DNA from: Candidatus Poribacteria bacterium
GTDB lineage: Bacteria; Poribacteria; WGA-4E; WGA-3G
NCBI GenBank assembly: GCA_026706025.1
Contig: JAPOZO010000032.1
Span: 1-64,000, forward strand
DNA length: 64,000 nt
Direction of reading: 5' to 3'
The position numbers were made by a program, and so were the translations under genes. Of this stretch, positions 37,917-52,153 are shown in pieces; position 1 is the first letter of the stretch; the number at the start of each line of letters is the position of its first letter. The notes below the pieces were generated by a model. That model was not told where the DNA came from, did not search any database, and saw only the letters and a list, made by a program, of their open reading frames with translations.

Positions 37917-39245
37917 ATGAACAAACCAAATATAATCTATATCCACTCACACGACACGGGACGGTATGTGCAACCTTACGGGCATGCGATTCCGACACCG
38001 AATATACAGAAACTCGCGGAAGAGGGTGTCGTGTTCCGAAACTCGTTTTGTGCAAACCCGACCTGTTCGCCATCGCGAGCGGCACTCCTCACGGGACAGT
38101 GGGCACATAGCTGCGGTATGGGCGGATTGGCAAACCGCGGTTGGAGTCTTCCGGTACCGGAGCACCTCATAACCTACACCTTGAATCAAGCCGGCTACAC
38201 CACCGCCTTGGCAGGATTCCAGCACGTCGTGCGAGATTTAAAAGAGACAGGTTACCAACGACTTTTATCTCAAGGCACCGTGCGCGCAGGTGCCGAAGAA
38301 CGCGCACGCGACTTCATCGCTGAGAAACATGATGCGCCCTTCTTCTTAGATGTCGGGTTTGGTGAGACACATCGCCGAGCGAAAGGGTTTGATCCGCCAC
38401 CAGAGGGCGAACCGAAGACGGATCCGCGCTATGTCAAACCGCCAGCACCGTTCCCTGATACGCCTGTAACCCGACAAGATATGGCAGAATACATAGATGC
38501 AGCCCGGACGCTTGATAGGAAAATGAGTGTGGTTTTTGACGCACTTGAGGAAAACGGAATCGCTGAAAACACGCTCGTGATATGCACGACTGACCACGGA
38601 CTCGCCTTCCCCCGAATGAAATGCCATCTCAGTGATCACGGTATCGGTGTGATGCTCATCGTCCGCGGTCCCGGCGGTTTTGATGGTGGGCAAGTCGTGG
38701 ATGGTCTGGTTAGTCAAATTGATCTGTTCCCCACTATTTGCGAATTGGCAGGTATTGATGCGCCTGCGTGGCTGCAAGGCACTTCCCTTCTACCGTTAGT
38801 TCGCGGCGAAGCGGACGATATTCGTGACGCTATTTTTGCTGAAGTCAACTATCACTGCTGTTATGAACCGCAGCGTGCTGTCCGGACCAAGCGGTGGAAA
38901 TACATCCGACGCTATGACAATGCGGAAAAGTGGGCATTGCCGAACTGTGACGATAGCATCAGCAAAACCTTTATGATGGAGCACGGTTGGGGTGATGATC
39001 CGGTTGAATCGGAGCGGTTGTACGATGTCGTGTTTGATGCGTCAGAGGCGCATAACCTTGCAGAGGATCCCAATTATGCGGATGTCCTGGTAGAGATGCG
39101 AGACCGTTTAGAGCAGTGGCGCGCAGAGACGGATGACCCGGTGAGCGAGAACCAGATTATGGTGCCGCCAGAGACGGCTGTGCTGAACGATCCGACAGAC
39201 GTGTCACCGGGTGATAAGCACTATCCGGCGCGCGAAATGGTGTAG
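37917..39245 (+). CDS. Sulfatase (Cys-type), N-sulfatase-like branch
   Basis: 442 residues. The formylglycine site is C50 in NPTCSPSRAALLTG. The first metal motif reads HSHDTGRYVQPYG rather than the common DDxG, as in heparan-N-sulfatase-like sulfatases, and TTDHGLAFPRMKCHLSDHGI supplies the C-terminal-side metal and substrate residues. There is no signal peptide, so it is probably cytoplasmic. A short gap to the antitoxin-like gene suggests co-transcription. Sulfated sugars from host or algal glycans are plausible substrates (inference). Confidence 0.9.
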   Translation: MNKPNIIYIHSHDTGRYVQPYGHAIPTPNIQKLAEEGVVFRNSFCANPTCSPSRAALLTGQWAHSCGMGGLANRGWSLPVPEHLITYTLNQAGYTTALAGFQHVVRDLKETGYQRLLSQGTVRAGAEERARDFIAEKHDAPFFLDVGFGETHRRAKGFDPPPEGEPKTDPRYVKPPAPFPDTPVTRQDMAEYIDAARTLDRKMSVVFDALEENGIAENTLVICTTDHGLAFPRMKCHLSDHGIGVMLIVRGPGGFDGGQVVDGLVSQIDLFPTICELAGIDAPAWLQGTSLLPLVRGEADDIRDAIFAEVNYHCCYEPQRAVRTKRWKYIRRYDNAEKWALPNCDDSISKTFMMEHGWGDDPVESERLYDVVFDASEAHNLAEDPNYADVLVEMRDRLEQWRAETDDPVSENQIMVPPETAVLNDPTDVSPGDKHYPAREMV

Positions 39246-41206: not shown

Positions 41207-41239
41207 CAAAAGCATACAATACGTAACGAGGAGATGGAA

Positions 41240-42298
41240 ATGAGAACAGTTAAATTAGGATTGATTGGGGCGGGTGGTATTGCCCAGGCGCACTGCGGCA
41301 CACTTGCAGATATCAAAGGTGCTGAAATTATTGCCGCCGCCGACCTTGTCCCTGCAAACCTGGAGCGCGCAAAAGAACGGTGGGGTATCAAACGCACGTT
41401 CAACGATTATAACGAGATGCTCAAAATGGACGAGATTGAGGCGGTCTACGTCTGCACTCCAACAGGTGTACACGCTGCACCAACAGTGGCTGCGCTGAAC
41501 GCAGGCAAACACGTTTTCTGTGAGAAGCCGATGGAGGCGACGTTGGACGCTGCCGCTTCAATGTGGCATGCCGCAAAAGAAAACGATAAAATATTGATGG
41601 TCGGTTTGAAACTCCGTTATTCGCCACAGGTAATCAAGGCAAAAGAGATCGTTGATGCTGGCACGCTCGGCGATATCTACTACGTTGAGACCGTCGCGGA
41701 TCGGCGGCGCGGGAACCCCGGTGGTAGTTTTATCCGAAAGGCGACAGCGGGTTTAGGCGCGTCTGCGGACATCGGTGTGTATGCGCTTGATACTGCTCTC
41801 TATCTGATGGGACACCCGAAACCTGTCGCAGTCTCTGGTATCACCTCTAACTACCTGAGTCTGCACAATACATGGAACCCTGCTCTTAAAGAGACTGAGG
41901 TCGAAGATTTTGGTGTCGGTTGGGTGGTCTTCGAGAACGGGGCGCGTATGGTATTCAAGACGTGCTGGTGCATGAACATGGATTCACTCGGCGGGACGAT
42001 TTTCCTCGGCAAAAAAGCGGGATTACGTCTCGGTATTGGCGAAGTCCGTGGCCCAGAGGAAGGCGTACGCGTCTATGGCGATAAAGACGGTGAGATTTTT
42101 GATCAAGAGTTCACTAATTTTGAATCGGTAAGTGTATTCCACGAAGAAGATTCGGCGTTTATTGACGCTGTCCGTGAAGGAAAACCTTCGCCGATTGATC
42201 CGTACGGCGTTATGCTTACCAACGTTATCATCCAAGGCGTTATTGATTCTTCAAATGCAGGCGGACGCGAAGTCGCGGTGACAGTGCCAACACTGTAG
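41240..42298 (+). CDS. Gfo/Idh/MocA family oxidoreductase
   Basis: 352 residues from the ATG at 41240, which has GAGGAG at a workable distance (the ATG at 41234 abuts it). LGLIGAGGIAQAHCGTL is the Rossmann loop, FCEKPMEATLDAA the EKP motif, and RKATAGLGASADIGVYALDT the conserved C-terminal catalytic stretch with GxxxDxGxxxxD. It oxidises or reduces a sugar with NAD(P). It is distinct from the gene at 36320. The RDD-PspA cluster begins 125 bases downstream. Confidence 0.9.
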   Translation: MRTVKLGLIGAGGIAQAHCGTLADIKGAEIIAAADLVPANLERAKERWGIKRTFNDYNEMLKMDEIEAVYVCTPTGVHAAPTVAALNAGKHVFCEKPMEATLDAAASMWHAAKENDKILMVGLKLRYSPQVIKAKEIVDAGTLGDIYYVETVADRRRGNPGGSFIRKATAGLGASADIGVYALDTALYLMGHPKPVAVSGITSNYLSLHNTWNPALKETEVEDFGVGWVVFENGARMVFKTCWCMNMDSLGGTIFLGKKAGLRLGIGEVRGPEEGVRVYGDKDGEIFDQEFTNFESVSVFHEEDSAFIDAVREGKPSPIDPYGVMLTNVIIQGVIDSSNAGGREVAVTVPTL

Positions 42299-42389
42299 CG
42301 AACACAATATCATGGTGCGAGGTGGTTGTGCCTTGCACCTTCTTCTGCACGCTATTTCGCTATCCTTTTTCGCCTTTGCTGACTCTACA

Positions 42390-42423: not shown

Positions 42424-43602
42424 ATGAAGTTTATTGAGGTTGCGGGTAAAAAACTCAAATTGGGATCACGATTTGCGCGGTTATTTGCGTTTCTTATAGA
42501 TGGAATGCTCGTAGCAGGTGTGCTGTCAATTTTGGCTTTTCTGTTTGATGCAATGGGTTCCGGTATTGGCCCGAGTCTTATTCGGATTGGATTGCTCAGT
42601 GCATTGCTGTGGACCCTGGGTCCTAAAACTAAAGTAGATGAAGATGTATTCCCTCTCGTGCAAATGTCTATAATTGGTCTTTTCGGACCGTGGCTGAACT
42701 ATAGTTTAGACACTCTACTCTGGGGCAGTGCAGCAATAGGGGCAGCTATTCTGCTTTTTATGGATGGCTTCGGTGATGGGCAAGGTCCCGGCAAGAAGCT
42801 GCTGTCCCTACAAGTGCTTCGATTGAAAAATGGTAAACCCTGCTCCTTTAAAGATTCTTTTGTTCGCCGTCTGACCAGCATCTTTCAACCCCTGGATTCC
42901 TTCTGGACTTTTGGCAAACAACGGCAGCGGATGGGAGATAAGTTAGCGGAGACGGTTGTGGTAAAGCTTGATCCAGTGCCAGAAGTTTTGGAAACCGAAA
43001 CCGAAGATCCTGAGAAAATTTTAGAGAACGCTATCGTTGAGATGACAAACCGGCTTTCAGATGCACGCCAGAAAGTTGATGCCTCTGTAGGTGTTGAAAA
43101 ACTGTTTAAGAATGCTTATGAAGGTGCTATCGCCCAAGCGGAAAACTGGCAAGAGCGTGCTATTATTAACCTCAAGGCGGGACGAGAGGATTTGGCAAGG
43201 GAAGACCTCGGAAAACGTAACGAATACCAGCGATTGGCAGACCAGTACAAAAAGCAAGGGGAAGAACAGGAACAGGTTGTCCAAACTCTTAGCGACCTCC
43301 TTGAGCATCTCCAGCAGAAAACCATGGAAGCGGAAGGGCAAAAGGCGACTGTCGTCGCACAACACAGAAATATCGATGCCGAAGTGCATCTCCGCGAGAT
43401 GCTGAAAGAGATAGAAAACAATCAAGCATTTGAGACACTTGCGAATATGGAGAAAAAAGCGACGGAGGCAGCCACTTTGGCAAAGGCGGCTGCTGAAACC
43501 GATGTCGCATATCAAAATGCGGCACTGGAGCGTGAATTTTCGGGTTATGCCGAAGAAGCGTCGCTTGATAAAGACCTCACTGAATTGAAAGCCAAATTAT
43601 AG
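42424..43602 (+). CDS. RDD-PspA fusion protein, paralog 1
   Basis: 392 residues. Residues 1-182 are an RDD-family membrane domain: SRFARLFAFLIDGMLV, membrane segments near 22-42, 52-66 and 83-113, then GPGKKLLSLQVLRLKNGKP and RMGDKLAETVVV. Residues 195-392 are a PspA/IM30 (ESCRT-III superfamily) coiled coil: EDPEKILENAIVEM, NWQERAIINLKAGREDLARE (the GREDLAR signature at 253-259) and a long Glu/Lys-rich helix. The N-terminal amphipathic helix of PspA is replaced by the RDD domain. It is probably an inner-membrane-anchored ESCRT-III-like filament subunit; the function is inferred. Confidence 0.85.
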   Translation: MKFIEVAGKKLKLGSRFARLFAFLIDGMLVAGVLSILAFLFDAMGSGIGPSLIRIGLLSALLWTLGPKTKVDEDVFPLVQMSIIGLFGPWLNYSLDTLLWGSAAIGAAILLFMDGFGDGQGPGKKLLSLQVLRLKNGKPCSFKDSFVRRLTSIFQPLDSFWTFGKQRQRMGDKLAETVVVKLDPVPEVLETETEDPEKILENAIVEMTNRLSDARQKVDASVGVEKLFKNAYEGAIAQAENWQERAIINLKAGREDLAREDLGKRNEYQRLADQYKKQGEEQEQVVQTLSDLLEHLQQKTMEAEGQKATVVAQHRNIDAEVHLREMLKEIENNQAFETLANMEKKATEAATLAKAAAETDVAYQNAALEREFSGYAEEASLDKDLTELKAKL

Positions 43603-43659
43603 CAATAAAAGTTCATCCGGCGGGCACCGTCCAAACACAAAAGATTTTAGGATTCACAG

Positions 43660-44739
43660 ATGAAGTCTATCAAAATTGCAGGAAAAAAATTCAAATTAGC
43701 ATCCCGCCTGACACGGTTATATGCTTTCTTCATAGATGTCGCACTGATTGGTGCCGCACAATCAGTTTTAGCATTTTTTCTTTCGTTGGTAGCAGTCCTG
43801 TTTCTCCATCAAAACTCTTGGTCAATTGGAATTGGATTCATCCCCTTTGTCGCTCTGTTCAGTCTTGCTTTGTGGATATTCGGTCTGTTTTTTATGGATG
43901 GCTTCAGAAAGGGGCAGGGCATAGGAAAGAAGTTGTTGTCGCTACAAGTACTTCGTTTGAAAGATGGCAAACCGTGTACTTTCAAAGACGCTTTTCTTCG
44001 CCGTTTCGCGGGTCTCCTGCAACCCTTTGACTTACTCTGGTTCCTTGGTAAAAAACAGCAACGCCTTGGAGATAAGTTCGCAGAGACGGTTGTTGTGGAA
44101 TTTGAACCGGAACCGGAACAGCTTGAAGCTGAAACCGAAGACCCAGAGCAGGTTTTAGAGAATGCCATGGTTGAAATGAAAAACCGTCTCACAGAGGCGA
44201 GCGAGAAGGTTGATGCCTCTATTGGGGTTGAAAAACAGTTTCAAGATGCTTACGAAGGCGCGGTTCTGCAAGCGGATCGGTGGCAAGACCGCGCTGTTAT
44301 CTCTCTGAAAGCAGGACGTGAGGATTTGGCACGCGAAGATTTGGAAAAACGGAATGAATACCGGCGACTGGCAGACGACTATAAAACGCAGTGGGAAGAA
44401 CAGAAACAGATCGTCCGATCACTGAGCGATCTCTTGGAGCATCTCCAACAGAAGATGACGGAGGCACAAGGTCAAAAAACGGCGATCGTCGCGAAACACA
44501 GAAACGTTGATGCGGAAACCCATTTGCGAGAGATGCTGAAAGAGATACAAGACAGTAAGGCATTTGAGACGCTGGCAAAGATGGAGCAGGACGCGACGGA
44601 GGCAGCCACTTTGGCGAAAGCTGCAGCTGAGGTAGATGTTGAATACCAAGATACGGAATTAGCGCGTGAATTCGCGGGTTACGCTGAAGAAGCATCACTC
44701 GACAAGGACCTTGCTGAATTAAAAGCAAAAGTTCAGTAG
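43660..44739 (+). CDS. RDD-PspA fusion protein, paralog 2
   Basis: 359 residues with the same two-part layout: an RDD domain (SRLTRLYAFFIDVALIGAAQ, LWIFGLFFMDGFRKGQGIGK, QRLGDKFAETVVV) and a PspA part from EDPEQVLENAMVEM through SLKAGREDLAREDL (signature at 219-225) to the C-terminal SLDKDLAELKAKVQ. It is shorter than paralog 1 in the second membrane loop. The PspA halves are more alike than the membrane halves, so the soluble part is under tighter constraint. It lies 57 bases after paralog 1. Confidence 0.85.
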   Translation: MKSIKIAGKKFKLASRLTRLYAFFIDVALIGAAQSVLAFFLSLVAVLFLHQNSWSIGIGFIPFVALFSLALWIFGLFFMDGFRKGQGIGKKLLSLQVLRLKDGKPCTFKDAFLRRFAGLLQPFDLLWFLGKKQQRLGDKFAETVVVEFEPEPEQLEAETEDPEQVLENAMVEMKNRLTEASEKVDASIGVEKQFQDAYEGAVLQADRWQDRAVISLKAGREDLAREDLEKRNEYRRLADDYKTQWEEQKQIVRSLSDLLEHLQQKMTEAQGQKTAIVAKHRNVDAETHLREMLKEIQDSKAFETLAKMEQDATEAATLAKAAAEVDVEYQDTELAREFAGYAEEASLDKDLAELKAKVQ

Positions 44740-44767
44740 AGAGAAAAAAGCCGAAAGGAGTTTCATA

Positions 44768-45073
44768 GTGTTTATTGAGATCATCAATCCGGACGAAAGG
44801 TATAAGAACTCTTACCGAGGGATGGTGAATATTGAGTATGTCCATCAGATTAAAATAATTAGGGGGCGACATCGTCAGTATGAGTTACACATTAATCTGT
44901 CAAACTCGCCCAGCATAGAACTGATCGGGACAAAAGAAGAATGCGAACAATTCTACGCGGAACTGAAAGCGGTATTGAAAACGCACAAACAATTGTCCAC
45001 AGCCGATACGCTTATTTTCCCGCCACAATTGCCATCAAAACCGTCAGCGGACGCGGCTGAAGAAGAGGTCTGA
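44768..45073 (+). CDS. Small PH-like protein inside the RDD-PspA cluster
   Basis: 101 residues with a GTG start: AAAGGAG lies 7 bases before it. The first 75 residues look like a compact beta/alpha fold (MFIEIINPDERYKNSYRGMV, YELHINLSNSPSIELIG, KEECEQFYAELKAVL) similar in rhythm to a small PH-like domain; the tail is proline- and acid-rich (LPSKPSADAAEEEV). No membrane segment. The spacing of 28 bases to paralog 2 implies one transcript. I do not recognise the family; an adaptor role is speculation. Confidence 0.65.
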   Translation: MFIEIINPDERYKNSYRGMVNIEYVHQIKIIRGRHRQYELHINLSNSPSIELIGTKEECEQFYAELKAVLKTHKQLSTADTLIFPPQLPSKPSADAAEEEV

Positions 45074-45169
45074 CCCTATCTTATTTTCCTTCTGAAACCG
45101 ACTCGTAGCACTCATTAACATCTTTTTTAGCAAGAGCAGATTCTCATAGAAAAGAAGGAGTTTCCAACG

Positions 45170-46285
45170 ATGTCCATTATTAAGGTTGCAGGAAAAAAGT
45201 TTCAATTGGCATCCCGATGGGCGCGACTGGGCGCGTTTTTATTAGACGTAGGGTTTTTGGGTCTCTGCCAAGCCATTTTGATTCTTAGCGGTTTTGTGCT
45301 ATTTGAGATTTTTGATAGTTTTAGAAGTTTTCATGACGCATCAAACATGACCTCGGTTAGTGTCGGGACTCTAAGTTTTATTCTGTGGGGATTCGGTCTG
45401 TTTTTCATGGATGGTGTGAAAAAAGGGGGTGGGTTTGGAAAGCGGCTTTTATCTCTACAGACAACCCGTTTAGAGGATGGAGAACCGGCGAATTTTAAAG
45501 ATGCCTTCGTTCGTCGTTTTGCGGGCATATTCCAACCCGTTGACTGGCTGTTTGCCACCGGAAAAGAGAAACAGCGGATGGGCGATAAACTTGCCAAGAC
45601 CGTTGTTGTTAAGTTAGACACAAAACAGGTTGAATTTGTGACTGAAGATGAAACTGAGTCTGCGGTTAAAAATAGAGCCGCAACAACCGATCTGGAAAAG
45701 GTATTAGGCGATGTCATCCATGAAATCACAAATCGGTTTTCGGAAGCAAAACAGAAGGTTGATGCCTCCATTGGCATTGAAAAACAGTTTCAAAACGCGC
45801 ACGAGGGAGCGATTGCACAGGCAGCACGGTGTGAGGAACGAGCAGCCATTGCTCTTCAAGCCGGACGAGAGGATCTCGCACGGGAAGATTTGGCACAACG
45901 GAATGAATACCGACGACTCGCAAGCAGCTATAAATCCCAATGGAATGAACAGAAACGGGTTGTGACACATCTTACAACGCTCTTTGAAACGCTGCAGCAA
46001 AAAACCGAGGAGACAGAAAGAAAAAGGGATCAGGTCATCGCACAGCACACAAATGTTGATGCTCACGAACATCTGCATCAAGCGTTGACAGAACTCCAAG
46101 ATAGCAAAGCTTTCGAGATTCTGAGGCAAGTAGAGCAAAACGTCACCGAAGCTGCCGCCTTAGCACGCGCGGCTTCTGAGGTGGACGTAGCGTTCAAAGA
46201 TGTGAAACTGCATCGTGAATTCTCAAACTATGCAGAAGACGCATCCATTGACAAAGACCTCGCCGAATTAAAGGCGAAATTATAA
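45170..46285 (+). CDS. RDD-PspA fusion protein, paralog 3
   Basis: 371 residues. RDD domain: SRWARLGAFLLDVGFLGLCQ, LWGFGLFFMDGVKKGGGFGK, QRMGDKLAKTVVV. PspA part: LEKVLGDVIHEITNRFSEAK, ALQAGREDLAREDLAQRNEY (signature at 232-238), then a long coiled coil ending SIDKDLAELKAKL. This is the most diverged of the three; the linker carries an extra acidic/basic stretch (DETESAVKNRAATTD). AAGGAG precedes the ATG. The small PH-like gene separates it from paralog 2. Confidence 0.85.
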   Translation: MSIIKVAGKKFQLASRWARLGAFLLDVGFLGLCQAILILSGFVLFEIFDSFRSFHDASNMTSVSVGTLSFILWGFGLFFMDGVKKGGGFGKRLLSLQTTRLEDGEPANFKDAFVRRFAGIFQPVDWLFATGKEKQRMGDKLAKTVVVKLDTKQVEFVTEDETESAVKNRAATTDLEKVLGDVIHEITNRFSEAKQKVDASIGIEKQFQNAHEGAIAQAARCEERAAIALQAGREDLAREDLAQRNEYRRLASSYKSQWNEQKRVVTHLTTLFETLQQKTEETERKRDQVIAQHTNVDAHEHLHQALTELQDSKAFEILRQVEQNVTEAAALARAASEVDVAFKDVKLHREFSNYAEDASIDKDLAELKAKL

Positions 46286-46329: not shown

Positions 46330-47802
46330 ATGGACACACATACTTCTCCAAACATTGTCTTTATCATGGCAGACGATATGGGATACGGTGATGTCGGCTG
46401 CTATAACCCAGACTCGAAGATTCCGACTCCAAATATGGATAAACTCGCGCAGGAAGGTATCCGCTTTACGGATGCACATTCTCCGTCCGCTGTCTGTACA
46501 CCGACACGATATGGCGTTCTAACAGGTCGATATTGTTGGCGGAGCCGTCTTAAGCACGGCGTGCTTTACGGGTACGAACCGCCGCTTATTGAACCCGAAC
46601 GCTTGACAGTCGCTGGATTACTGAAAGACGCGGGTTACAACACCGCCTGCGTCGGCAAATGGCATCTCGGACTCGGGTTTTCGACGATGCAAGGGTACGA
46701 CTTCGATTTCAATGCCCCACTGCCGTGGTCAAATGCCGGACGTGAACTCGAAGAGCATATTGATTTCACTGCACCACTCACGGGTGGTCCTGTGGATATT
46801 GGGTTTGACTATTTTTACGGGAATTCCGGCTGCCCGACCTGCCAACCGCCTTACGGTTTTATTGAAAACGACACATTTGTCGAAATTCCGAGCGTCTATC
46901 ATGAAGTACCAGAGTTTACAAGCCGTCCCGGTATGATGACACCAGGGTGGGCGCACAAAGATGCGGATCCTATTATAGCAGAGAAAGCCGTCGAATATAT
47001 TGAAGAACAAGCCGATGCGGATGTCCCTTTCTTCCTCTATCTGACCCCTTCCGCACCGCATGAACCTTGTACAGAGGCTGTTGTACCAGACTTCGCACGT
47101 GGACGGAGCAGTGCTGGTCCCCGTGGTGATATGGTATGGCTTGTGGATTGGATGGTGGGTGAAGTCATGGATGCGTTAGAACGCACCGGCAAAACCGATG
47201 AGACGCTCATCTTTGTCACGAGTGATAATGGCGCACTGCCCGGTGACAGGATTCAGGGAGCTAACAGCCCAATGCCGTATCATCTCTACGATCATAAATC
47301 TTGCGGTGACTGGCGTGGTTACAAGGCACATATCTGGGAGGGTGGTCATCGCGAACCCTTGATTGCGCGTTGGCCCGGTGTCGTCGCACCGAATACCGAA
47401 ACCGATACGTTAACCTGTCTCACCGATCTGATGGCGACTTGCGCAGCTATTGTCGGGACAGAAGTGCCAGACGACGCAGGACAGGACAGTTGCAACATTT
47501 TGCCCGCGTTACTGGGTGAAAAGATAGAAAGCCCATTGCGGGAAGCTATTGTGCATCATTCCAGCACAGGTGTTTTCTCTATCCGGCACGGTGATTGGAA
47601 ATTGATCTTGGGAACACAAGGTTCCGGTGGCTGGCCCCCACCTCGCGATGGCGGTCCCCAACCGGATACGCCGGGGCAACTGTATCATATCTACGACGAT
47701 CCGGGTGAAACGAATAACGTATGGGAAATGTATCCAGAAATTGTGGAACGCCTGACAGCGTTGCTGGAGAGATTTCAGCAGGAGGGGCACAGTCGGATGT
47801 GA
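46330..47802 (+). CDS. Sulfatase (arylsulfatase-type)
   Basis: 490 residues from the ATG at 46330. The metal motif is IMADDMGYGDVGCY (D15-D16), the formylglycine site C56 in SAVCTPTRYGVLTG, and CVGKWHLGLGF carries the active-site Lys/His. SDNGALPGD is the C-terminal metal site. There is no signal peptide. It is of the type with CTPTR instead of CxPSR, common among planctomycete and poribacterial arylsulfatases. It needs conversion of C56 by an activator not found in this window. Confidence 0.92.
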   Translation: MDTHTSPNIVFIMADDMGYGDVGCYNPDSKIPTPNMDKLAQEGIRFTDAHSPSAVCTPTRYGVLTGRYCWRSRLKHGVLYGYEPPLIEPERLTVAGLLKDAGYNTACVGKWHLGLGFSTMQGYDFDFNAPLPWSNAGRELEEHIDFTAPLTGGPVDIGFDYFYGNSGCPTCQPPYGFIENDTFVEIPSVYHEVPEFTSRPGMMTPGWAHKDADPIIAEKAVEYIEEQADADVPFFLYLTPSAPHEPCTEAVVPDFARGRSSAGPRGDMVWLVDWMVGEVMDALERTGKTDETLIFVTSDNGALPGDRIQGANSPMPYHLYDHKSCGDWRGYKAHIWEGGHREPLIARWPGVVAPNTETDTLTCLTDLMATCAAIVGTEVPDDAGQDSCNILPALLGEKIESPLREAIVHHSSTGVFSIRHGDWKLILGTQGSGGWPPPRDGGPQPDTPGQLYHIYDDPGETNNVWEMYPEIVERLTALLERFQQEGHSRM

Positions 47803-47807
47803 GAAGG

Positions 47808-48185
47808 CTATACGTCGTCCGCCTCAAAGGGGAGGATACGTACCCGTGTGCGGTCTTCAGTGATAGTAAGTAACGCTCCCCTTTCTAGGACTGATTCGTG
47901 TTGATGAAGAATATCTATTAACGCGGGGCCCAGGTTCCACGGTAGAGCATTCTGAACGCGGGCTTGAATCACACTAGGTTTTTGAGCGTAGGTAGTTGCA
48001 AGTAGTATTCCAAAATCAAGATCTTGCGTAAACACGACATAATCATTTTCACGGGCCCAAGCCATAATGGTGTTATCTGACGCGTGCGGTTCCCCTATAT
48101 CCTGCCAGTGTACTGCGTGCCATCCGTGTTGTTCAAAAACGGGAACCCATTTCATAGAAAGGTTCATATCAATCAGTATTTTCAT
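47808..48185 (-). CDS. DUF5615 PIN-like toxin
   Basis: 125 residues from the ATG at 48185. MKILIDMNLSMKWVPVFEQH and then VVFTQDLDFGILLA are the two acidic strands of the DUF5615 PIN-like fold (D6, and D90-range DLD residues). HWQDIGEPHASDNTIMAWA is the usual middle segment. The gene overlaps the end of the DUF433 gene by 17 bases and forms a type II toxin-antitoxin-like module with it. RNase activity is inferred from the PIN fold. Confidence 0.88.
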   Translation of the reverse strand: MKILIDMNLSMKWVPVFEQHGWHAVHWQDIGEPHASDNTIMAWARENDYVVFTQDLDFGILLATTYAQKPSVIQARVQNALPWNLGPALIDILHQHESVLERGALLTITEDRTRVRILPFEADDV

Positions 48186-48426
48186 AGATATCCAGTGGCA
48201 CTTCAATCTCTTGAACTCGCCACGCAGCATAAGAAAGGGACTGACGAATATCTTCCTCTTCCAAATAGGGGTAGGCATCCAAAATCTCGGCATTGGAACA
48301 ACCAGAGGCAACCAAACCAACTATCATCCCAACAGTGACCCGCATCCCACGGATACAAGGCTTGCCACCCATGACTTGTGGATTGAATGTTATCCTGTCA
48401 AGTTTTTGCATTTTTCTTTTTCCCAT
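48169..48426 (-). CDS. DUF433 antitoxin
   Basis: An 85-residue DUF433 protein: LDRITFNPQVMGGKPCIRGM, RVTVGMIVGLVASGCSNAEI and LDAYPYLEEEDIRQSLSYAA. This is the standard partner of DUF5615 toxins and probably binds DNA through its helix-turn-helix-like C-terminal half. Its 3' end overlaps the toxin start. A second in-frame ATG five codons on is possible. Confidence 0.88.
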   Translation of the reverse strand: MGKRKMQKLDRITFNPQVMGGKPCIRGMRVTVGMIVGLVASGCSNAEILDAYPYLEEEDIRQSLSYAAWRVQEIEVPLDIYENTD

Positions 48427-50489: not shown

Positions 50490-50518
50490 TTGACTTAAAT
50501 CGGAGTTTGAAGTACAAT
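50490..50518 (+). promoter_or_regulatory. Sigma-70 promoter, sulfatase copy A
   Basis: TTGACT (50490-50495) and TACAAT (50513-50518) are 17 bases apart, 25 bases before the start. The same arrangement recurs before the next sulfatase, showing that promoter and gene were duplicated together. Confidence 0.8.
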
Positions 50519-50542
50519 CATTACCAAAAACTGGGAGTTGCA

Positions 50543-52153
50543 ATGAACACATCAGACCGTCCGAACATTCTTTGGATCTCGTTAGAGGATACAACACCGC
50601 GCTTCGGTTGCTACGGGGACACGCTTGCGCGTACACCGAACGTTGACCGGCTCGCTGCAGGCGGGTGTCGGTTTCCAAATGCCTTTTCAACAGCCGGCGT
50701 CTGTGCACCCAGTCGTTCCGCTATTATCACCGGTATGTATCAGACTTCCATTGGAACACATCACCATCGGACCACGCATACAGACCCAAGTACACCTGAC
50801 CTACCGACGCCGTATTCTGCTGTTCCGCCACCTTATGTGAAAACCTTCACTGAATATCTGAGAGGGGCAGGCTATTATTGCACCAACAATAGTAAAACAG
50901 ACTATCAGTTTACACCTCCTATCACAGCGTGGGATGACAATAGCAATCAAGGACACTGGCGAAATCGTGCGGAAGGGCAACCCTTCTTTTCCGTTTTTAA
51001 CCCAACCGTTACACACGAAAGCGGTATGTGGGAAAAGGAAGATCGTCCACTGACCACGAATTCGGATGACGTGGAATTACCACCTTATTTACCAGATACA
51101 CCTAAAGCCCGTGCTGCATTGGCTCGACAGTACGATAACCTCGCCACTGCTGATACACGTGTCGGAGAGTTGTTAGATCAACTCGAAGAGGACGGCCTCG
51201 CTGAAAATACCATTGTCTTTATTTGGAGCGACCACGGTGAAGGACTTCCGCGCGGTAAACGTTGGCCCTATGATGCGGGGATTCAAATTCCGTTGATTGT
51301 GCGTTGGCACGAAGCACTTAATCCAGGGAGTGAAAGTGATCAATTGGTGAGTTTGATTGACCTCGGTCCCACTGTGCTTTCGTTATGTGGTGTTCAAGCA
51401 CCGCAGCACCTACATGGACAACCCTTCCTTGGCCCCGAAAAAGTAGAACGTGAATATATTTTTGCGACGCGCGACCGCCTTGATTTATCGTATCACATGC
51501 TGCGTGCTGTGCGGGATAAAAAGTATAAATACATCCGAAATTATTACCCCGAAAAGCCGTATCTCCGCTGGGATCCTTACCGCAATAGCCATCCGGTGAT
51601 GCAGGAGATGTGGCGACTTCACACCGAAGGCAAATTAGAGGGGGATCAATTGGTCATGTTCCAATCACCGTGCCCCACTGAGGAGCTCTATGATGTGGAA
51701 AATGACAAGTATGAACTCAACAACTTAGCAGAGAATGCAGCACATGCAAATGTGCTTAAGCGGATGCGAGAAACGTTGGGAGAATGGCAAACTGAATTCG
51801 GGGATATGGGGTATATATCCGAAGAACAGATGGTGGCGAAATGGTATCCTAACGGCACACAACCCCAAACGGCACCACCACTTTTCATTCCGATTAACGC
51901 GTCTAACCCTGGTATGGAACCTACTCATGAAGATGGAGAATGGGACGCACCGCTGCTTCTGCAACTCCATTGTTCAACACAAGGTGCCTCAATTGCGTAT
52001 ACAACCGAACCAGGTGAAGATGTCCGATGGCAGTTGTATACAGAACCTTTGCGTTTACCGAAAGGTGAAACTGTTATAAGAGCAAAAGCAATTCGGATCG
52101 GTTACAAAGAGAGCGATGAAAAATCTCTAAAATTCACAGTTTCAGACAACTAA
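50543..52153 (+). CDS. Sulfatase with C-terminal chitobiase-like domain, copy A
   Basis: 536 residues from the ATG at 50543, with GGGAG upstream. SLEDTTPRFGCYGD gives the first metal site, C54 in AGVCAPSRSAIITG the formylglycine site, and WSDHGEGLPRGKRWPYDAG the second metal site. The last 70 residues (LHCSTQGASIAYTTEPGED, LRLPKGETVIRAKAIRIGYK) are a CHB_HEX_C-type beta domain. No signal peptide. It has a close tandem paralog downstream (copy B). Confidence 0.92.
   Translation: MNTSDRPNILWISLEDTTPRFGCYGDTLARTPNVDRLAAGGCRFPNAFSTAGVCAPSRSAIITGMYQTSIGTHHHRTTHTDPSTPDLPTPYSAVPPPYVKTFTEYLRGAGYYCTNNSKTDYQFTPPITAWDDNSNQGHWRNRAEGQPFFSVFNPTVTHESGMWEKEDRPLTTNSDDVELPPYLPDTPKARAALARQYDNLATADTRVGELLDQLEEDGLAENTIVFIWSDHGEGLPRGKRWPYDAGIQIPLIVRWHEALNPGSESDQLVSLIDLGPTVLSLCGVQAPQHLHGQPFLGPEKVEREYIFATRDRLDLSYHMLRAVRDKKYKYIRNYYPEKPYLRWDPYRNSHPVMQEMWRLHTEGKLEGDQLVMFQSPCPTEELYDVENDKYELNNLAENAAHANVLKRMRETLGEWQTEFGDMGYISEEQMVAKWYPNGTQPQTAPPLFIPINASNPGMEPTHEDGEWDAPLLLQLHCSTQGASIAYTTEPGEDVRWQLYTEPLRLPKGETVIRAKAIRIGYKESDEKSLKFTVSDN

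Follow-up and report, generated by a model that had tools for sequence, protein, structure and literature searches.

RDD-PspA fusion proteins in one family of Poribacteria and their predicted anchoring to the membrane

Results

Gene layout of the fusion locus

The window analysed here, a 64,000-nucleotide stretch of a Candidatus Poribacteria genome, carries three adjacent forward-strand genes that each fuse an RDD membrane domain to a PspA/IM30 domain. Copy A (positions 42424–43602; 392 aa) has its RDD at 42466–42948, which is longer and has an additional hydrophobic insert, and its PspA/IM30 domain at 42997–43596. In copy B (43660–44739; 359 aa) the two domains lie at 43699–44082 and 44122–44730, and in copy C (45170–46285; 371 aa), the deepest split among the paralogues, at 45209–45598 and 45689–46279. 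Between copies B and C, a frame with a GTG start encodes a small protein of 101 aa (44768–45073, forward strand). The conserved upstream neighbour encodes a Gfo/Idh/MocA oxidoreductase (41234–42298), while a sulfatase gene that is probably co-transcribed with the fusions follows downstream (46330–47802); both were identified with Pfam and lie on the same strand.

The first-pass annotation had described three adjacent fusions, and the searches agree with it: each open reading frame is present, and each protein scores above the Pfam cut-offs for both domains. RDD (PF06271) reached 45.3, 51.8 and 48.6 bits (cut-off 24.1), and PspA_IM30 (PF04012) reached 80.4, 69.6 and 67.8 bits (cut-off 33.9). 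Scores against the NCBIfam PspA equivalog TIGR02977 were 66.4, 63.5 and 49.9 bits, below its cut-off of 242.95. Trees and dN/dS values further characterised copies A and C, as did an AlphaFold2 model and Foldseek for copy B. Artefacts of frame calling or assembly were ruled out by intact genes in dozens of genomes and by dN/dS values of 0.06–0.21. Scanning the fusion locus for promoters and terminators returned hits at chance level only. A hairpin noted at 42314–42339, between the Gfo/Idh gene and copy A, is unsupported.

The RDD domain

Five Arg/Asp residues of the RDD are invariant in 58 fusions (R19, D26, D80, R135 and D138, copy B numbering). Some RDD members are reported to have a role in cation/H+ antiport or protein complexes, and RDD is also reported to have a conserved site within the membrane that faces the cytoplasm (PMC12419801). 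The fusions share PF06271 and the conserved Arg/Asp residues with family members including SppI/YteJ of Bacillus subtilis and the RDD antiporter of Halobacillus, in which two transmembrane helices are likewise certain and a third is doubtful. Unlike these proteins, the RDD of the window is fused to PspA. Its description as a three-helix domain is uncertain: hydropathy and the model give two transmembrane helices, but the third hydrophobic segment is short, weak and amphipathic.

A PspA core without alpha0

PspA is normally a soluble protein of bacterial membrane repair and is related to the ESCRT-III machinery. PspA/Vipp1 and ESCRT-III are thought to act by reversible membrane recruitment through alpha0 and a basic hairpin. 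As the first-pass annotation had proposed, alpha0 is missing from all three fusions, where the match to the PspA profile begins at position 17–23 of 220. The AlphaFold2 model of copy B, built from 58 fusions, passes from the last RDD strand (residues 143–147) to alpha1 (162–217) without an intervening helix, and in the junction alignment the end of the RDD and an acidic linker occupy the place of alpha0. The EDPxK..IxEM motif is good in the first two copies but degenerate in the third (TDLEKVLGDVIHEI). Judged from sequence and model, each fusion has the RDD membrane domain at its N-terminus, followed by an acidic linker and a PspA alpha1–alpha5 core that lacks alpha0.

Besides alpha1, the copy B model contains alpha2-3 (221–281), alpha4 and alpha5. 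Its confidence is low to moderate (pTM 0.35; RDD 48–79, linker 37, alpha4-5 43–59), with the hairpin at a pLDDT of about 70–94. The expected ESCRT-III/PspA-like hairpin was recovered, as the top structural matches of the model are Vipp1 and PspA (Foldseek E 1.1e-6 to Vipp1; VIA-align Z 13.1 over 135 residues). On its own a helical hairpin also aligns with numerous unrelated coiled coils at Z 10–12; the identification as PspA comes from the sequence match. Model and residue conservation both support an ESCRT-III-like alpha1-alpha2/3 hairpin and an alpha5, the placement of alpha4-5 being of low confidence. F197 and L200, named as interface-3 residues of Vipp1 (PMC11919738), align with F338, invariant in the 58 fusions, and with Y341, conserved in at least 90%. 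The fusion and canonical consensus sequences are most alike in alpha5 (58%) and alpha2-3 (51%). The parts that would form a polymer, the hairpin and alpha5, are retained at the sequence level. The fusions thus have the alpha1–alpha5 core, the hairpin and the F197/L200-equivalent positions in common with PspA/Vipp1 (IM30) of the ESCRT-III superfamily. They differ from it in carrying an RDD for alpha0, an acidic hairpin and scores far below the TIGR02977 cut-off.

The net charge of the alpha1-3 hairpin ranges from -13 to -3 in 78 fusions (-9 in copy A), whereas 15 canonical proteins from Poribacteria have values of +1 to +5. A positive hairpin is the second membrane-binding device of PspA/IM30 (PMC12636044). 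With alpha0 absent and the hairpin acidic, both known membrane-binding devices are lost or weakened. Not every PspA has a positive hairpin, since that of Escherichia coli PspA is near-neutral (-1); the loss of a positive hairpin therefore carries less weight as evidence than that of alpha0. Removing alpha0 leaves PspA able to form rods but unable to tubulate membranes (PMC12358876). The core can therefore polymerise without alpha0.

Distribution, origin and selection

The fusion is present in 56 of the 59 genomes of one Poribacteria family. The 26 genomes from other Poribacteria lack it and carry ordinary PspA with an amphipathic alpha0. All fusions form a single clade nested inside poribacterial PspA (stem branch 1.19), which indicates that the fusion arose once, out of the poribacterial PspA lineage. 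The closest sequence relatives are the canonical PspA proteins of sister families (for example L087 and L081), which unlike the fusions are soluble, with an amphipathic alpha0 and a net positive hairpin. No RDD gene was detected within a few kb around canonical poribacterial PspA. An origin of the fusion from a neighbouring RDD gene in the same operon was rejected, as none was detected next to the canonical pspA loci of other families. An apparent unfused intermediate, with RDD and PspA in separate frames (L078/G064), was discarded because its linker sequence points to a fused gene that has undergone a frameshift. A phage or defence origin was also set aside, as comparison of the fusions with PHROG, PADLOC and phage sequences gave no significant hit. 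A scan of 84,980 species for near relatives found 44 loci, all in Poribacteria, and no RDD-PspA fusion appeared in plasmid and phage records; differently built fusions could escape both searches.

Canonical PspA is gone from the fusion-bearing family. One divergent soluble PspA with an amphipathic N-terminus remains, remote from the fusions (stem branch 2.26) and in an unrelated ABC-transporter context.

The paralogues of the fusion fall into separate orthologous groups in the tree. Among loci with both flanks on the contig, and counting a few broken copies, 7 carry one copy, 19 two, 10 three and 2 four. The idea that the fusion is always multicopy therefore did not hold in related genomes. 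Two of the family's species have a clean empty site where the cassette has been lost, and broken or frameshifted copies occur in several genomes; the fusion system is therefore dispensable.

These losses, along with the long stem branch, are what would be expected of a degenerate remnant, in which the PspA domain lost membrane remodelling after the fusion and the genes are decaying duplicates. We regard this as very improbable. For all three window copies dN/dS against orthologues is low (0.06–0.21), at 0.13–0.19 in copy A and 0.06–0.09 in copy C; dozens of columns are invariant across 58 fusion sequences, and nearly every genome of the family carries the fusion. As judged from dN/dS, the fusions are under purifying selection.

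A conserved metabolic neighbourhood

Among the 43 loci whose contig extends to a downstream gene, a sulfatase-cluster gene, in most loci the sulfatase, comes directly after the last copy in 41, usually 2–42 bp away and across genera. Gfo/Idh lies upstream of the fusion in 33 loci. Pfam assigns the neighbours of the fusions in the window to Gfo/Idh, sulfatase, PhyH, ADH and ThuA, and the same clusters recur in related loci. Canonical PSP partners (pspB/C, SPFH, PspAA or similar) were absent from the Pfam-identified neighbours in the window and related loci.

Such a constant setting raises the question of whether the fusions serve a sulfated-sugar catabolic operon, as a membrane platform or as a transporter-like RDD with a coiled-coil enzyme scaffold. 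One RDD protein is reported to be a cation/H+ antiporter (PMC7568657), which would suit this role. We nevertheless find it improbable: the Gfo/Idh-sulfatase-PhyH string stands without the fusion at the clean empty site in the two species, Gfo/Idh there adjoining the sulfatase, and Gfo/Idh and sulfatase also occur without it in another family. Because the same operon string exists without the fusion, the cassette looks inserted into a metabolic operon. We also know of no precedent for a PspA scaffold for soluble enzymes. The neighbourhood counts against a PspA-type scaffold too, the sulfatase operon partner being no known PSP component.

The small protein reported inside the cluster is real and constrained (dN/dS 0.08–0.11), but it is a genus-restricted passenger and not integral. 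It was rejected as a core component, since it occurs in 29 of 85 genomes of the phylum, all in one genus, and in roughly half of these it is encoded on a contig other than that of the fusion. Its predicted fold is weakly PH-like, with PH/PTB/FERM-F3-like matches only at a Foldseek E of about 0.05 and a Z of about 6.

Discussion

With moderate confidence, we propose that the fusions are membrane-anchored PspA/ESCRT-III-type scaffolds that replaced soluble, positively charged PspA in one poribacterial family. Their sequences are best read as a PspA-type scaffold that would be held to the membrane in cis by the RDD, not peripherally. Permanent anchoring, as the first-pass annotation had it, is the most natural prediction from the RDD fusion and the loss of alpha0. 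The RDD would cross the membrane twice with both ends cytoplasmic, placing the PspA hairpin on the inner face. There, subunits could stack as they do in Vipp1/PspA, their hairpins packed side by side and alpha5 crossing over the tip of the hairpin. If every subunit is anchored, the polymer would be a fixed lattice on the membrane, in which regulation could act on assembly but not on membrane binding. Instead of tubulating membranes as a rod, such a lattice may stabilise or organise them. The RDD may in addition bind a ligand or lipid, which would turn the anchor into a sensor.

Polymerisation, hetero-filaments and membrane remodelling are what we infer from these features. Where they occur together, paralogues A, B and C could mix, and the divergent soluble PspA may join them as well. 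It is a tentative suggestion, which we hold to be doubtful, that the three co-assemble on the inner face as an anchored hetero-filament and take over the family's membrane remodelling or internal organisation. The multi-subunit nature first ascribed to the system is not general; given the single-copy loci and the clean absences, a hetero-filament is possible and not required. If it does form, the ESCRT-III recruitment step would be abolished and assembly alone would control remodelling.

The persistence of a divergent soluble PspA in the family also fits a different role, which we think unlikely, in which the fusion is a membrane receptor whose RDD senses a lipid or ion and whose coiled coil docks and regulates that protein. 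The analogy would be with YdjG/H and YdjI for Bacillus subtilis PspA, or with PspB/C in E. coli. B. subtilis PspA depends on the membrane proteins YdjG/H, together with YdjI, for its arrival at the membrane (PMC8581546), the conserved intramembrane site reported for RDD faces the cytoplasm (PMC12419801), and the alpha5 and hairpin of the fusions could co-assemble with soluble PspA. On the other hand, the fusions keep the full alpha1–alpha5 core including self-assembly residues, exceeding the needs of a docking site, and the soluble paralogue is remote in both sequence and gene context. Co-occurrence does not discriminate, as one of the two fusion-less species has a weak soluble PspA match and the other none at threshold.

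An anchored scaffold would resemble the B. subtilis PspA-YdjG-YdjH-YdjI system, in which PspA owes its membrane attachment to integral membrane proteins (PMC8581546), with the difference that anchoring there is in trans through separate proteins and here through a fused domain. That known PspA proteins are soluble is true of the characterised ones, but a Nostoc sp. MS1 plasmid protein (WP_224096111.1; one plasmid record only) combines a PspA core with hydrophobic segments of its own. Unlike the fusions, it keeps an alpha0-like N-terminus, and its Gly-rich hydrophobic insert has no Pfam match and is not an RDD. This different construction suggests that anchored PspA probably evolved more than once. 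According to the available part of a comprehensive PSP survey (Ravi et al. 2024, PMC11237479), PspA fusions are rare (<2%) and involve NlpC/P60, PspAA or tandem PspA, and a Snf7-RND transporter joins the ESCRT-III superfamily to a membrane protein; RDD is named nowhere in that part of its main text. No paper treating RDD together with PspA was found in the literature searched.

Recruitment would be separable from polymer action, an open question for ESCRT-III, if membranes are still protected or shaped by the anchored form, and the fusions would be ready-made tools for separating the two. The single-origin replacement, the soluble relatives in sister families and the clean losses in two species provide natural controls. 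The fusion family lives in sponges, and its anchored PspA would be a natural test of how PspA-type proteins grip membranes.

Three RDD-PspA fusion genes

Three adjacent forward-strand ORFs in the window (copies A, B and C; 42424-43602, 43660-44739 and 45170-46285) each encode an RDD membrane domain (PF06271) and a PspA_IM30 coiled coil (PF04012), as the first-pass annotation had read from the sequence. In a Pfam profile search both domains scored above Pfam's curated cut-offs in all three ORFs, with E-values of 1e-11 to 1e-13 for RDD and 1e-18 to 2e-22 for PspA_IM30. Pairwise identity among the three is 56-65%. The amphipathic helix described at first pass as missing is indeed absent: the alignment to the PspA profile starts at profile position 17-23 in each protein, leaving the region of alpha0, the N-terminal amphipathic helix of ordinary PspA, uncovered. 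Considering that its near relatives among 84,980 scanned species were Poribacteria without exception, the window is part of a Candidatus Poribacteria genome.

Membrane binding of PspA/IM30 has been attributed to alpha0 and a positively charged alpha1-3 hairpin (PMC12358876, PMC12636044), and PspA without alpha0 still forms rods and does not tubulate membranes (PMC12358876). The fusions lack alpha0 and have a net negative hairpin (-13 to -3 in 78 sequences), a range that does not overlap that of canonical poribacterial hairpins (+1 to +5 in 15 proteins). Against its closest relatives the fusion hairpin is plainly shifted in charge, yet a negative sign is not unique to it, since the E. coli PspA hairpin scores -1. 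Assembly elements are retained. Vipp1 interface 3 residues F197 and L200 align with fusion F338, which is invariant, and Y341, which is at least 90% conserved; fusion and canonical consensus are closest in alpha5 and alpha2-3.

Predicted structure

We ran AlphaFold2 on 58 fusions. The RDD side of the model (copy B numbering) comprises a beta hairpin, long helices 16-49 and 54-81 and short helices 108-129. Residues 149-161 form a disordered link to alpha1 (162-217), alpha2-3 (221-281), alpha4 and alpha5. Most of the hairpin was modelled with good confidence (pLDDT ~70-94) and the remainder with moderate or low confidence; the pTM of 0.35 means that the model does not fix the relative position of the domains. 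The modelled hairpin is PspA/Vipp1-like: the best 17 Foldseek matches were all Vipp1/PspA, followed by Asgard ESCRT-IIIB, CHMP1B and Snf7 with weaker, non-significant scores. VIA-align against Vipp1 gave Z 13.1 over 135 residues, although unrelated coiled coils also score Z 10-12.

Of the three RDD helices initially proposed, the two long ones are supported as transmembrane; the third segment is weakly hydrophobic and amphipathic. Its hydropathy, 0.29-0.98, is below the 1.8-2.0 of two further RDD proteins from Poribacteria, and its hydrophobic moment (0.44-0.58) is close to the canonical alpha0 value (0.46-0.48); a position on the membrane surface is therefore possible. The first RDD helix is preceded, and the second followed, by basic residues, consistent with both RDD ends being cytoplasmic.

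Distribution and origin of the fusion

A whole-genome search of 85 poribacterial genomes for the same fusion, counting intact and broken copies, recovered it from 56 of 59 genomes in a single family and from no genome among the 26 belonging to other families. PspA in those other families lacks RDD and typically opens with an amphipathic alpha0, e.g. MGFFNRVSTIFKSNVNAALDQAEDPEK, while the sole other PspA in the fusion-bearing family is a divergent soluble protein. The fusion has therefore replaced canonical PspA in this family. That the fusions act as a receptor for soluble PspA seems unlikely to us.

The gene for the divergent soluble PspA (locus L099:4175-4843, G000:C72, and relatives) overlaps an ABC-transporter ATPase gene, with a DNA methylase and another putative ABC component as neighbours. 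A 312-aa coiled-coil protein (L100:3777-4715, G000:C84), with a sub-threshold PspA match of 28 bits, is possibly a further distant PspA-like protein. Other poribacterial families encode a very divergent additional PspA type (L105:944-1669, L107:3854-4573), near a second type and on the same strand.

In a maximum-likelihood tree of PspA domains, the sampled fusions formed a single group among poribacterial PspA (support 100/100) on a long stem of 1.19 changes per site; support for its exact sister was weak. Positional equivalents from different genomes cluster together in the fusion tree, where copy C is the deepest split. The dN/dS values of 0.06-0.21 indicate purifying selection on the copies. 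Where the contig spans both flanks of a locus, one, two, three and four fusions were counted at 7, 19, 10 and 2 loci, respectively, with a few broken copies included, so the fusion is not always multicopy. At L078:5977-7058 (genome G064), the RDD and PspA parts overlap in different frames, a linker frameshift that is either real or an assembly error.

The main text of a broad PSP survey puts tandem or fused forms at <2% of PspA homologues, names NlpC/P60 and PspAA as fusion partners, mentions a Snf7-RND fusion and does not include RDD (PMC11237479). A search of the open literature found no paper treating Poribacteria together with PspA. The first-pass annotation likewise knew of no description of this architecture. 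A Nostoc sp. MS1 plasmid (NZ_AP023445.1, L123:1545-2666) encodes WP_224096111.1, a 373-aa protein annotated PspA/IM30, in which an alpha0-like start precedes ~110 residues of Gly-rich hydrophobic sequence and the PspA core. By hydropathy it looks like an independently anchored PspA with a membrane segment of its own; unlike the fusions, it has an alpha0-like start. The next gene has weak nuclease-domain matches (NucS_C, Shedu SduA_C).

The small protein within the cluster

The small protein noted inside the cluster (44768-45073, forward strand, between copies B and C) has 101 aa, is strongly conserved and had no family match. It is limited to the window's genus (29 genomes) and under purifying selection (dN/dS 0.08-0.11), with a predicted fold that is weakly PH-like. 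Although present in the cluster here, it lies elsewhere, including on other contigs, in about half of its carriers. It is a passenger or optional partner.

Genomic context and proposed role

The fusion genes lie between a Gfo/Idh oxidoreductase gene and a sulfatase gene. In 41 of the 43 loci that could be tested, the gene directly downstream belongs to the sulfatase cluster; this is the main unexplained fact, and the fusions might accordingly serve the adjacent sugar operon. We consider this reading less likely than the receptor, as the same metabolic string occurs without the fusion genes. At clean empty sites in two species (genomes G072 and G066; L141:4168-4239, L142:4244-4307), the sulfatase gene comes directly after Gfo/Idh, ~60-70 bp away, where nearly all other family members have RDD-PspA genes. 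This argues that the fusion genes were inserted into the metabolic string.

Several sulfatase genes (37917-39245, 46330-47802, 50507-52153) occur within a ~15-kb part of the window and belong to what looks like a sulfated-glycan catabolic region. On the reverse strand, a DUF5615 PIN-like gene and an overlapping small ORF (48169-48426), together spanning 47808-48426, recur as a pair in many of the loci (clusters c7/c8) and are possibly a toxin-antitoxin pair.

What was once described as membrane compartments in Poribacteria is now read as protein microcompartments (PMC3909097, PMC5087111); we therefore do not claim a link between the fusion and internal membranes. A conserved intramembrane RDD site facing the cytoplasm has been reported (PMC12419801), as has antiporter function for one RDD member (PMC7568657). 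We suggest that the fusions probably form a membrane-anchored PspA scaffold. RDD would fix each subunit in the membrane, and the cytoplasmic PspA cores would build an ESCRT-III-like lattice that is permanently membrane-located. Control would then fall on assembly, and RDD might additionally sense a lipid or ion.
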